This document shows positions 9,501-14,572 of a stretch of DNA of 64,000 nucleotides, piece by piece (positions within the stretch are counted from its first letter, which is position 1; every line of letters begins with the position of its first letter). The notes beneath the pieces are model-generated. The model worked only from the letters and a program-made list of their open reading frames with translations, had not been told where the DNA came from and ran no database searches. Source of the DNA: Burkholderia sp. USMB20 (lineage in GTDB: Bacteria; Pseudomonadota; Gammaproteobacteria; Burkholderiales; Burkholderiaceae). The stretch is from assembly GCF_000949135.2 (NCBI RefSeq), contig NZ_JTAN02000020.1, forward strand, positions 1 through 64,000, written 5' to 3'. The translations under genes were made by a program, and so were the position numbers.

Positions 9501-10247
9501 GTGGCCGATTCCTCGCTGGCCGGGCCCGCAGCCGACGGCGCGGTCCGTTTCGCGACGCCGCGCATCGACGCGGCACTGATCGACCTCGACGGCACGATGG
9601 TCGACACGGCCGACGATTTCACGGCCGGGCTGAACGGAATGCTCGCGCAGCTCGGCGCGCCGGCCACGTCGCGCGACGAGGTGATCGGCTACGTCGGCAA
9701 GGGCTCCGAGCATCTGATCCAGAGCGTGCTGAAGCCGCGCTTCACGCCCGACGAAGCGCACGCGCGCTTCGACGACGCGCTCGCGATCTACCAGACCGAG
9801 TACGCGAAGGTCAACGGCCGCCACACGCGTCTCTATCCGGACGTCGCAACCGGCCTCGATGCGTTGCGCACGGCCGGCATCCGGCTCGCATGCGTGACGA
9901 ACAAGCCGCACCGCTTCGCGGTCGAGCTGCTCGAGCAATACGGGCTGATCGATCGCTTCGGCATCGTGCTCGGCGGCGACAGCGTCGCGCGCAAGAAGCC
10001 CGATCCGCTGCCGATGCTGACGGCGTGCGAAGCGCTCGGCGTCGCGCCGGACGCGGCGGTCGCGATCGGCGACTCGGAAAACGACGCGCTGGCGGGCCGC
10101 GCGGCCGGGATGGCGACGCTGACGGTGCCATACGGCTACAACCACGGCAAAGCTATACAAACGATAAATTCGGATGGTATAGTCGATTCGTTGCTGGTCG
10201 CAGCCCGCGCGATCACCGCGCACAACGCCGGCCGGCCAACCCTCTGA
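9501..10247 (+). CDS. gph: Phosphoglycolate phosphatase
   Basis: A 248-residue HAD-superfamily phosphatase that removes phosphate from 2-phosphoglycolate. HAD motif I is DLDGTMVDT with the nucleophile at D28 and D30; motif II is CVTNKPH; motifs III and IV appear as KKPDPLPML and IGDSENDALAGRAAG. I chose the GTG at 9501 because it has GGAG at 9489-9492; another GTG at 9465 lies inside rpe and would add 12 unrelated residues. The last 35 codons are unusually AT-rich around 10151-10190 and may contain the promoter of the downstream trp leader. Confidence 0.93.
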   Translation: MADSSLAGPAADGAVRFATPRIDAALIDLDGTMVDTADDFTAGLNGMLAQLGAPATSRDEVIGYVGKGSEHLIQSVLKPRFTPDEAHARFDDALAIYQTEYAKVNGRHTRLYPDVATGLDALRTAGIRLACVTNKPHRFAVELLEQYGLIDRFGIVLGGDSVARKKPDPLPMLTACEALGVAPDAAVAIGDSENDALAGRAAGMATLTVPYGYNHGKAIQTINSDGIVDSLLVAARAITAHNAGRPTL

Positions 10248-10264
10248 TTATTTCTTCCATCCGC

Positions 10265-10339
10265 ATGTTTCTGAATAAAAAACGGAGTCTGAGCAGCATC
10301 GACCGGGGAGCCTGGCCCTGGCGTCGCTGGTCGCGCTAA
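10265..10339 (+). CDS. trpL: Trp leader peptide of the trpE attenuator
   Basis: A 24-codon open frame ending MFLNKKRS... ...GAWPWRRWSR with three tryptophans in six residues (WPWRRW, codons 17-22) followed by a stop at 10337-10339. It lies 18 bases after gph and is immediately followed by mutually exclusive hairpins and a U-run, exactly the layout of a ribosome-mediated trp attenuator. No good Shine-Dalgarno sequence is visible before the ATG, so translation initiation may be weak or use another signal. The gene name is given by function; I did not compare it with described leaders. Confidence 0.82.
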   Translation: MFLNKKRSLSSIDRGAWPWRRWSR

Positions 10340-10385
10340 CCTCTTCGATGAGGTACGCTGAGGCACGTCTTCAGCGCCGTTTTTT
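10295..10385 (+). promoter_or_regulatory. Tryptophan transcription attenuator
   Basis: Three alternative hairpins can be drawn by eye. Hairpin 1:2 pairs AGC-AT-CGACC (10295-10304) with GGTCG-C-GCT (10329-10337) and puts the Trp codons in its loop. Hairpin 2:3 (antiterminator) pairs GCG...ACCTC (10333-10343) with GAGGT-A-CGC (10350-10358). Hairpin 3:4 (terminator) pairs CGCTGAGG (10356-10363) with CTTCAGCG-type arm 10369-10376, one G-U pair, with GG/CC extending it around a bulge, and is followed by T6 at 10380-10385. Hairpins 2:3 and 3:4 share 10356-10358, so they exclude each other. Ribosome stalling at the Trp codons would free region 2 and allow read-through into trpE. Confidence 0.82.
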
Positions 10386-10605
10386 ATCTCGCTGCGCAGC
10401 CGCGCGCCGATCGTCGCACCACCTCGAGTTCTACCGCGTCCGAACGCTTGCGTTCAGGACCGGCCGCAGGCTCGCGACGTTCACGCCCGGCGTGCCGGCC
10501 GGCAACAGGCACTTCTCGATCGACCGCCCTTTCGCCGACGGCAGCCCGCGCAGCGTCAAGTGATCCCTGGCGCACGCCGCCGCTCGTCCCGAACAGGACC
10601 GGAAC
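10386..10605 (+). other. Long untranslated spacer between attenuator and trpE
   Basis: About 220 bases separate the attenuator U-run from the trpE start. No credible gene or further terminator hairpin is visible. It would be the 5' untranslated part of the read-through mRNA; the length is unusual for a trp leader. Confidence 0.5.
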
Positions 10606-12099
10606 ATGACCGAACTCGAATTCCAATCGCTTGCGAACGAAGGCTACAACCGCATCCCGCTGATCGCGGAAGCGCTCGCCGACCTCGAAACGCCGCTGTC
10701 CCTCTACCTGAAGCTGGCCCAGCCTGAACGCGCGGGCGCCAACTCGTTCCTGCTCGAGTCGGTGGTCGGCGGCGAACGCTTCGGCCGCTATTCGTTCATC
10801 GGCCTGCCCGCCCGCACGCTGGTGCGCACCCGCAACGGCGTGTCCGAAGTGGTGCGCGGCGGCCAGGTCGTCGAGACGCACGACGGCGACCCGTTCGAAT
10901 TCATCGAGTCGTTCCAGGCGCGCTTCAAGGTGGCGCAGCGCCCGGGCCTGCCGCGCTTCTGCGGTGGCCTCGCCGGCTATTTCGGTTACGACGCGGTGCG
11001 CTACATCGAGAAGAAGCTCGCGAACACCGCGCCGCGCGACGATCTCGGCCTGCCCGACATCCAGCTGCTGCTCACCGAAGAAGTCGCGGTGATCGACAAC
11101 CTCGCCGGCAAGCTCTATCTGATCATCTATGCGGACCCGGCCCAGCCGGAAGCCTATACGAAGGCCAAGCAGCGCCTGCGCGAGCTGAAGCAGCGCCTGC
11201 GCACGACCGTGCAGCCGCCCGTCACGTCGGCGAGTGTGCGCACCGAGACGTTCCGCGAGTTCAAGAAGGAAGACTATCTGGCCGCCGTGCGCCAGGCGAA
11301 GGAATACATCGCGGCCGGCGAACTGATGCAGATCCAGGTCGGCCAGCGTCTGACGAAGCCGTATCGCGACAATCCGCTGTCGCTGTATCGCGCGCTGCGT
11401 TCGCTGAATCCGTCGCCGTACATGTACTACTACAACTTCGGCGATTTCCACGTGGTCGGCGCATCGCCGGAAATCCTGGTGCGCCAGGAAAAGCGCGGCG
11501 AAGACCAGATCGTCACGATCCGTCCGCTCGCCGGCACGCGTCCGCGCGGCAACACGCCCGAGCGCGATGCGGAACTCGCGACCGAACTGCTGAACGATCC
11601 GAAGGAAATCGCCGAGCACGTGATGCTGATCGACCTCGCGCGCAACGACGTCGGCCGCATCGCGGAAATCGGCTCGGTGCAGGTGACCGACAAAATGGTG
11701 ATCGAAAAGTACTCGCACGTGCAGCACATCGTCAGCTCGGTCGAAGGCAAGCTGAAGCCCGGCATGACGAACTACGACGTGCTGCGCGCGACGTTCCCGG
11801 CCGGCACGCTGTCCGGCGCGCCGAAGGTGCGCGCGATGGAACTGATCGACGAGCTCGAGCCGATCAAGCGCGGGCTGTACGGCGGCGCCGTCGGCTACCT
11901 GTCGTTCTCGGGCGAGATGGATCTCGCGATCGCGATCCGCACGGGCCTGATCCACAACGGCAACCTGTATGTGCAAGCGGCAGCCGGCGTCGTCGCGGAC
12001 TCGGTGCCCGAATCCGAATGGCAAGAGACCGAGAACAAGGCGCGCGCGGTGCTGCGTGCGGCCGAACAGGTCCAGGACGGCCTCGATAGCGACTTCTGA
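10606..12099 (+). CDS. trpE: Anthranilate synthase component I
   Basis: A 497-residue chorismate-utilising enzyme that makes anthranilate from chorismate with ammonia from TrpG, the first step of tryptophan synthesis. The N-terminal part has the Trp-binding LLES motif ([17 protein letters not shown]), the site of feedback inhibition. The C-terminal catalytic region shows [47 protein letters not shown] and [18 protein letters not shown]. It is the first structural gene after the attenuator, and trpG starts 13 bases after its stop. Confidence 0.97.
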
Positions 12100-12112: not shown

Positions 12113-12712
<600 letters not shown>

Positions 12713-12725
12713 CGGGAGACGCACG

Positions 12726-13757
12726 ATGACGATTACCCCGCAGGAAGCGCTGCAACGCACGATCGAGCACCGCGAGATCTTCCACGACGAAATGCTGCAC
12801 CTGATGCGGCTCATCATGCGCGGCGACATGTCGCCCGTGATGGCGGCCGCGATCATCACCGGGCTGCGCGTGAAGAAGGAGACGATCGGCGAGATCGCCG
12901 CCGCCGCGACCGTGATGCGCGAATTCGCGAACCACGTCGAAGTGCAGGACAACTCGAACTTCGTCGACATCGTCGGCACGGGCGGCGACGGCGCGCACAC
13001 GTTCAACATCTCGACCGCGTCGATGTTCATCACGGCGGCGGCCGGCGCGAAGGTCGCGAAGCACGGCAACCGCGGCGTGTCGAGCAAGTCCGGCAGCGCC
13101 GACGTGCTCGAGGCGCTCGGCGTGAACATCGACCTGCAGCCCGACCAGGTTGCCGCATCGATCGCCGAAACCGGCATGGGCTTCATGTTCGCGCCGAACC
13201 ATCATCCGGCGATGAAGAACATCGCGGCCGTGCGCCGCGAGCTCGGCGTGCGGACGATCTTCAACATTCTCGGCCCGCTGACCAATCCGGCCGGCGCGCC
13301 GAACCAGCTGATGGGCGTGTTCCACCCCGACCTCGTCGGCATCCAGGTGCGCGTGATGCAGCGCCTCGGCGCGCAGCACGTGCTGGTCGTGTACGGCAAG
13401 GACGGGATGGATGAAGTATCGCTGGGCGCCGCGACGCTCGTCGGCGAATTGCGCGACGGCAAGGTGCACGAATACGAGATCCATCCGGAGGACTTCGGCC
13501 TGCAGATGGTATCGAACCGCACGCTGAAGGTGGAAAATGCCGAGGAATCGCGCACGATGCTGCTCGGCGCGCTGGACAACCAGCCGGGTGTCGCACGCGA
13601 GATCGTCACGCTGAACGCGGGCACCGCGCTCTACGCAGCCAATATCGCCGAATCGATCGCCGACGGCATCCAGCTCGCCCGCGAAGCGATCGCGAGCGGC
13701 AAGGCACGCGCGAAGGTCGACGAACTCGTGCGCTTCACGCAGCAGTTCAAGCGCTGA
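12726..13757 (+). CDS. trpD: Anthranilate phosphoribosyltransferase
   Basis: A 343-residue enzyme that joins anthranilate to PRPP, the second committed step of tryptophan synthesis. The PRPP-binding glycine-rich loop [14 protein letters not shown] lies at about residues 82-95, and the family segments [22 protein letters not shown] and [25 protein letters not shown] follow. A strong GGGAGA ribosome binding site precedes the ATG. The order trpE-trpG-trpD-trpC as one unit, apart from trpFBA, is typical of betaproteobacteria. Confidence 0.97.
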
Positions 13758-13786: not shown

Positions 13787-14572
13787 ATGAGCGACATTCT
13801 CGACCGAATCATCGCCGTCAAGCGCGAAGAAGTCGCGGCGGCCATGCGCAGCACGCCGCTCGAGGCACTGAAACTGGACGCATCGGCGCGCGACCTGCGC
13901 GACTTCGTCGGTGCACTGCGCGCGAAGCAGGCAGCGGGCCAGGCGGCGGTAATCGCCGAAGTGAAGAAGGCGAGCCCGTCGAAGGGCGTGCTGCGCGAGC
14001 ATTTCGTGCCGGCCGACATCGCGCGCTCGTATGCGGCCCACGGCGCGGCGTGCCTGTCGGTGCTGACCGACGAGCAATTCTTCCAGGGCAGCGTCCGCTA
14101 TCTCGAGGAAGCGCGTGCGGCGTGCACGCTGCCGGTGCTGCGCAAGGACTTCATCGTCGACGCGTACCAGATCCTCGAGGCGCGCGCGATGGGTGCCGAC
14201 GCGATCCTGCTGATCGCGGCCGCGCTCGACACGCCGCTGATGCAGGACCTCGAGGCGTACGCGCACTCGCTCGGCCTCGCGGTGCTGGTCGAAGTTCACG
14301 ACCGCGACGAGATGGAACAGGCGCTGACGCTGAAGACGCCGCTGCTCGGCATCAACAACCGCAACCTGCGCACGTTCGAGACGACGATCCAGACCACGCT
14401 CGACATGCTCGACATGATTCCGCCGGACCGCATGGTCGTGACCGAGTCGGGCATCCTGTCGCGCACCGACGTCGACACGATGCGCGCGGCGAACGTGAAC
14501 GCGTTCCTCGTCGGCGAAGCGTTCATGCGCGCCGACCAGCCGGGCGAGGAACTGGCGCGGATGTTCTTCTGA
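13787..14572 (+). CDS. trpC: Indole-3-glycerol phosphate synthase
   Basis: A 261-residue TIM-barrel enzyme that cyclises carboxyphenylamino-deoxyribulose phosphate to indole-3-glycerol phosphate. Active-site segments visible are [14 protein letters not shown] (catalytic Lys), [41 protein letters not shown] and VTESGI. It is monofunctional: no phosphoribosylanthranilate isomerase domain is fused. The stop codon TGA overlaps the ATG of the next gene by one base (TGATG), implying translational coupling to the CYTH protein. Confidence 0.97.

Follow-up and report, generated by a model that had tools for sequence, protein, structure and literature searches.

A probable tryptophan attenuator ahead of trpE in Burkholderia and a covarying helix that spans its leader reading frame

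The DNA analysed here, a stretch of 64,000 nucleotides from Burkholderia sp. USMB20 (hereafter the window), carries between gph and trpE a leader that is best read as a tryptophan attenuator, as the initial annotation had proposed, because both its Trp codons and its RNA pairing are conserved. The parts of this leader, their conservation and their covariation can be seen directly in the sequences of relatives. Among them is a helix, here called helix A, in which codons 4 to 7 of the leader open reading frame (ORF) pair with the tail of the terminator. That the attenuator is real and that helix A is a genuine, kept RNA helix we regard as highly probable; what helix A does is something that we infer, and that it closes the terminator is put forward tentatively. 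The design had also been called classic, which holds for the leader and the terminator but not for the textbook 2:3 pairing, which does not rise above chance, and helix A had been missed.

The leader, its promoter and its distribution

The source of the window stands close to B. ambifaria, as its TrpE is 100% identical to that of B. ambifaria (L001) over 497 residues and its trpE DNA 97% identical to that of L003. Gene matches agree with the annotated order of gph, leader and trpE-G-D-C (Table 1), and the 220-base spacer, read directly, ends at the trpE ATG at 10606. The genes trpG, trpD and trpC presumably form one operon, and are co-transcribed, with trpE.

Table 1. Features of the trp leader and its surroundings in the window
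Feature	Position	Strand	Description	Basis
gph	9501-10247		directly ahead of the leader region	
Promoter	10154..10183	+	TATACA-18-TATAGT, TG ahead of the -10, within the 3' end of gph	scan match
Leader ORF	10265..10339	+	MFLNKKRSLSSIDRGAWPWRRWSR and stop; Trp codons 17, 19 and 22; no Shine-Dalgarno sequence	read directly; putatively translated
Helix A, 5' arm	10275..10285	+	ATAAAAAACGG, codons 4-7	perfect 11-base complement of 10377-10387; covariation
P1	10286..10337	+	hairpin within the ORF, role of 1:2	fold; covariation
AT	10320..10369	+	extended 2:3 pairing, would take up the 5' arm of T	fold
P2	10339..10354	+	hairpin ACCTC/GAGGT from the stop codon	fold; covariation
T	10356..10376	+	terminator hairpin (3:4), CGCTGAGG-CACGT-CTTCAGCG	scan; covariation
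Terminator tail and helix A, 3' arm	10377..10387	+	CCG 10377-10379, U6 10380-10385, AU	
trpE	10606..12099	+	anthranilate synthase component I, first gene controlled	TIGR00564, 552 bits against a cut-off of 517.7
trpG	12113-12712	+	trpG/papA family	NCBIfam match
trpD	12726-13757	+	trpD family	NCBIfam match
trpC	13787-14572	+	trpC family	NCBIfam match

The 24-codon, Trp-rich frame that had been noted between gph and trpE is indeed present, and it recurs widely. We compiled 121 trpE upstream regions (the window, 80 loci and 40 further genomes) and called a leader by script where a start of the form ATGTT(Y)..AA(Y) was accompanied by at least two Trp codons, which was the case in 110 regions. All 110 leaders carry AWPW at codons 16-19, so that Trp17 and Trp19 are invariant there, and the expected conservation of Trp codons is thus borne out, with Trp22 lost in several leaders. 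Since Trp22 is replaced by Ser in five of them (L029, L050, L080, L081 and L083), two Trp codons seem to be enough. The leader is taken to be translated because it is conserved. In L084, L132 and L133 its stop codon is lost and the frame extends by three codons to a TGA inside P2.

No leader was found by this call in 11 of the 121 regions (L097, L098, L099, L104 and L114-L120), which fall in the Burkholderiaceae groups g2, g11, g12, g18, g19, g21, g22 and g23. Three of these (L098, L115 and L116, of groups g18 and g12) have short PWFWR, PWLWR or SWIWR frames ahead of trpE, which are perhaps diverged Trp leaders. The AWPW motif was required by pattern or script in three further samples. Among 40 additional stretches 37 have the leader, the exceptions being L155-L157 (group g25), which show no leader of the tested pattern within 500 bases upstream of trpE and in which it is either lost or diverged; among 20 further stretches of groups g3 and g24, picked partly for a prior match to the strict pattern, all 20 have it. 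Family-wide, 305 of 398 Burkholderiaceae genomes and 14 of 25 genera carry the strict leader pattern; among the matches listed, each positive genome has a single one and a reversed control pattern has none across the Burkholderiaceae genomes. Across the order, it was found in 3 of 200 Burkholderiales genomes, all three being Burkholderiaceae, and the RNA model R1 matched 2 of 120 Burkholderiales genomes, again both Burkholderiaceae.

Transcription probably starts at about 10190. Similar promoter hexamers at a spacing of 18 were present in 108 of the 115 leaders with sufficient upstream sequence and absent from 7, the remaining 52 of the 167 leaders surveyed being too short upstream to judge. 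The promoter lies in coding sequence, and no ATA codon besides its three (at 10155, 10164 and 10179) occurs among the 103 Ile codons of six neighbouring genes.

The lack of a Shine-Dalgarno sequence, previously remarked upon as odd, is real, since none of 93 distinct leader upstream stretches contains a Shine-Dalgarno 4-mer at -18 to -5, compared with all 23 distinct stretches in the trpE control. The leader stretch is also poor in G (11%). However, because relatives lack the sequence too, its absence is no oddity of this strain. Leaderless translation was considered as its cause and rejected, as in the twelve commonest classes 68-96 bases separate the conserved -10 element from the ATG.

Hairpins and a predicted switch at the terminator base

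The region 10248-10400 folds better than all of 200 dinucleotide shuffles (z -3.27). Pairing was followed in 76 distinct sequences, thinned from 147 leaders; this set omits groups g3, g5, g7 and g24 on account of their ORF length or missing tail, and its rows L024, L028 and L031 are incomplete because of the limits of the pattern. The share of paired cells in these sequences is 93.9% for P1, with 4 of 18 pairs changed on both sides, 87.3% for P2 (79.2% at its inner pair), with 3 of 4 pairs so changed, and 98.9% for the seven inner pairs of T, with 4 of 7; the outermost pair of T (C-G in the window) reaches just 14.9%. The whole structure contains 15 pairs with changes on both sides, compared with 5 or 6 in slid versions. 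P1, P2 and T thus hold through both-side changes, as had been expected of relatives if the element were real, and the U6 tail that was placed after the last hairpin is there.

Three alternative hairpins with overlapping arms had been described. All three (P1, AT and T) can be drawn, P1 and the extended AT overlapping and P1 and P2 coexisting in the minimum energy fold, but the middle one, AT, does no better than shuffled sequence. It is paired in 83.9% of cells with five both-side-changed pairs, three of which are P2 pairs. In equilibrium folds of truncated RNAs, for which the footprint of the ribosome was guessed and by which alone the three ribosome states are predicted, the 5' arm of T would be taken up to 0.72 in the window (median 0.63 in 100 leaders) when the ribosome stalls at Trp17 and to 0.08 (median 0.12) when it stands at the stop codon; the E. 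coli trpL control, taken from the K-12 record, gives 0.71 and 0.01, respectively. Yet this sequestration was matched by 239 of 500 versions of the window with a shuffled upstream part (78 of 500 for E. coli trpL), and by energy 81 of 500 shuffles were as good as AT of the window, compared with 6 of 500 for E. coli trpL. Since shuffles do as well, AT as the antiterminator is unproven.

A different feature of the terminator drew our attention. Between the best local hairpin and the U run there is a gap of 3 bases in the window and of 7-10 bases in four g8 leaders, and over 99 leaders this gap is 0-2 in 52, 3-10 in 43 and not found in 4; six E. coli leaders all have a gap of 0. Among the leaders listed, those with a gap of 1 touch the U run solely through pairing of a GG before T with the CC after it. 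The GG in question (10352-10353) lies in the 3' arm of P2, which makes it an alternative partner of the CC at 10377-10378. In the same kind of equilibrium folds, the CC is predicted to pair upstream of T with a median probability of 0.93 for a ribosome at the stop codon, but of 0.10 for one at Trp17 and 0.02 for one at Trp19 (96 leaders). Closure of the base at the stop codon exceeds that at Trp17 by more than 0.1 in 84 of the 96, 2 leaders show the opposite direction, and in L089 and L093 the stop-codon state fails to close the base. Compared with shuffles, closure at Trp17 is unusually low in 5 of 21 leaders (L091, L096, L101, L141 and L147, of groups g11, g15 and g16, with 3-6 of 200 shuffles as low) and not unusual in the window (60 of 200), L102 (45 of 200) and the other 14 (25-129 of 200). 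From these folds, pairing or non-pairing of the GG before T with the CC after T would be the likelier switch than the textbook 2:3 pairing.

Termination and its dependence on tryptophan could then come about as follows. Transcription would begin inside the 3' end of gph, and the 24-codon leader would be translated by a ribosome. With ample charged tRNA-Trp, the ribosome would reach the stop codon and cover the 5' arm of P2, the freed GG would pair with the CC, T would reach the U run and RNA polymerase would stop. With scarce charged tRNA-Trp, the ribosome would stall at Trp17 or Trp19, P2 would form and hold the GG, T would be left without its base, and trpE-G-D-C would be transcribed.

Behind the U run, TCGCTGCGC is found at 10389-10397 of the window and in many relatives, and in some Paraburkholderia (e.g., L045) a second T6 run follows soon after it, which is perhaps a backup terminator.

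A helix from the leader start to the terminator tail

Helix A is paired in 93.4% of cells of the 76 sequences and beats all of 500 shuffles in cells paired, in both-side-changed cells and in covariation score; it is not above shuffles in the number of both-side-changed pairs (137 of 500 as high) or of pair types (151 of 500). Three of its varying pairs are never broken in this set, namely 12:187 (CG 41, UA 30, UG 2), 14:184 (AU 58, GU 13, GC 2) and 15:183 (AU 64, GC 8, GU 1), whereas 21:176 is broken in 6 of 74 sequences and 11:188 in 40 of 73, so that the helix mostly has 10 pairs. In 81 of 81 sequences including the window, the last base of codon 4 is complementary to the base that follows the U run (69 U-A, 12 C-G), with six changes on each side along the TrpE tree; the four independent pairs on well-supported branches all change together, too few for a sign test (p 0.125). 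In group g11 a synonymous AAG accompanies the interrupted run UUUCUU, whereas AAA accompanies U6 in two other leaders of g11, L096 and L149. The letters that vary in codon 4, and in g11 in codon 5, are synonymous.

Eight leaders of the family reach a tail pairing score of 23-29, with 0-2 of 300 shuffled tails as good, compared with 10.5-16 and 64-275 of 300 for six leaders from E. coli. For this reason we rejected the idea that attenuators in general have a paired tail. Two further readings of the complementarity were set aside: a longer helix reaching into the 3' arm of T as antiterminator, since codons 8-10 of g11 vary, as judged by eye, without matching T, and a palindrome at the level of DNA, which is disfavoured by the preservation of G-U pairs.

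In groups g3, g5 and g24 (L105-L112 and L162-L181), which keep a 28-codon Trp leader peptide, the 5' arm has its partner elsewhere. The same arm pairs immediately behind the stop codon over 10 bases in g5 and 8 in g24, and in g3 with one A-C mismatch; L106 has a matching change on both sides of this stop-adjacent helix. The single g7 leader has a 13-base partner 122-134 bases behind the stop. From these placements, the 5' arm is fixed and its partner mobile but always beyond the ORF. No T5 run was found within up to 200 bases behind the leader in 24 of the 28 leaders of g3, g5 and g24, in which control may run via Rho or translation. In L108, L109, L111 and L112 another copy of GCGTTTGC, likewise complementary to this arm, is found nearer to trpE, 196-245 bases past the stop codon of the leader.

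When no ribosome is present, folding predicts that P2 and helix A form together and that the CC is not paired with the GG. With six U made, the predicted pairing of CC with codons 5-8 has a median of 1.0 and exceeds 0.5 in 90 of 97 leaders; with no U made it is 0.35 and exceeds 0.5 in 34 of 97, and L089 and L101 barely form helix A in the full fold. In the absence of a ribosome, P2 would thus form too, the CCG would be taken by codon 7 (CGG) and the U run by codons 4-6, and helix A would both close the terminator base and hide the leader start region. The closed base would end transcription of an untranslated leader. In E. coli, it is the 1:2 hairpin that makes an untranslated leader terminate, and helix A would replace it here. 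We offer it as a tentative idea, with clearly less than even support in our own judgement, that helix A is a gate for ribosome occupancy, in which codon 7 and the CCG form a terminator base that is shut only when no ribosome sits between the arms. Stalled, finished and absent ribosomes would be told apart by the partner of the CC, and the helix of g3, g5 and g24 would gate another output, e.g., Rho.

A possibility to which we give the same modest weight is that the attenuator works but helix A merely locks the start region of the finished leader RNA and has no part in termination. With the U run added, opening the start region is calculated to cost a median of 11.2 kcal/mol instead of 5.9, and the rise exceeds 1 in 23 of 25 leaders picked for diversity. 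Furthermore, since g3, g5 and g24 pair behind the stop and 24 of 28 have no T5 run, the helix needs no terminator, and a precedent of sorts exists in E. coli trpL, where GGGTATC ahead of the start complements a downstream GATACCC and where pairing of the start region limits leader peptide synthesis. Such a lock leaves unexplained why the CCG ahead of the U run is preserved and why codon 7, CGG, pairs with it (the last G of the codon in 68 of 74). Terminator closure and start-region locking are, as inferences, about equally likely and mutually compatible.

Less probable is a textbook attenuator in which only P1, AT and T matter and the complementarity between codons 4-7 and the U run is a side effect, the A-rich codons 4-7 aiding initiation without a Shine-Dalgarno sequence and the U run serving termination. 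Like the locking of the start region, it is a variant of the main attenuator reading. The predicted uptake of the 5' arm of T by AT resembles that of E. coli trpL (0.72/0.08 versus 0.71/0.01), and the GCU/AGC of AT is preserved in 98.2% of cells. However, AT is not above shuffles, the letters of helix A covary and three varying pairs are never broken, this covariation extends to leaders with an interrupted U run (UUUCUU with AAG), and tail pairing of this kind is absent from the six E. coli leaders.

It is improbable that the correlated changes in helix A arose by template switching between inverted-repeat arms and not by selection. In its favour, the two arms form near-perfect inverted repeats, and one pair has few intermediates (2 UG among 73). 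Against it, G-U is common at 14:184 (13 GU, mostly in group g10), and arms of unrelated sequence are paired in g5, g24 and g7, as they are, apart from a single mismatch, in g3. Finally, an unregulated gph terminator next to a chance Trp-rich frame, conceivable from the mere 17 bases between the end of gph and the leader ATG, is very hard to reconcile with a start codon and Trp codons conserved across Burkholderiaceae and with the covariation of P1, P2 and T.

Relation to known attenuators and meaning

Ribosome-mediated attenuation of trp genes is a known kind of control. Like E. coli trpL, the Burkholderia leader consists of a short ORF with Trp codons before trpE and a terminator with a U run, and the position of the ribosome is predicted to set the fold. 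Unlike in E. coli, where T abuts the U run, the two are 3 bases apart in the window, trpG and trpD are separate genes, a Shine-Dalgarno sequence is lacking and the promoter lies inside gph. The start region of E. coli trpL has its partner in an internal segment and shows no significant pairing to the tail of the terminator, whereas here codons 4-7 join the U run. Leader-peptide attenuation ahead of split trp genes is also known from trpE and trpGDC of Pseudomonas and from trpE(G) of Rhizobium, a design that the present leader would share.

The Trp_leader family of Rfam (RF00513) belongs to the same functional class. Nothing in the window scored as high as the gathering score of any Rfam family, and searching 10150-10620 under relaxed conditions yielded just three weak matches, to other families.

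Outside the enterobacteria, Sinorhizobium peTrpL is likewise the leader peptide of a Trp attenuator and is reported to act in trans (PMC7298713). For B. cenocepacia, another study reports 82 short 5'UTRs (PMC5688073). Neither a Burkholderia trp attenuator nor pairing between a leader start and a terminator tail was reported in the titles and abstract openings of the literature searched, of which the coverage was partial. Given this coverage, the attenuator itself may already be in print, for instance in comparative studies of proteobacterial attenuators; what we regard as new is the spanning helix, together with its covariation and the choice between two partners that is open to the CC.

Overall, the present analysis adds a leader that is missed by every Rfam model in the window, and helix A would account both for the CCG before the U run and for the fixed synonymous codons of the leader. 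Attenuation is taught mostly from one wiring, and the Burkholderiaceae seem to reach the same three-way logic by another, in which the start of the leader ORF is tied to the tail of the terminator. As such, the finding opens the testable question whether a helix across an ORF can sense the presence of a ribosome.
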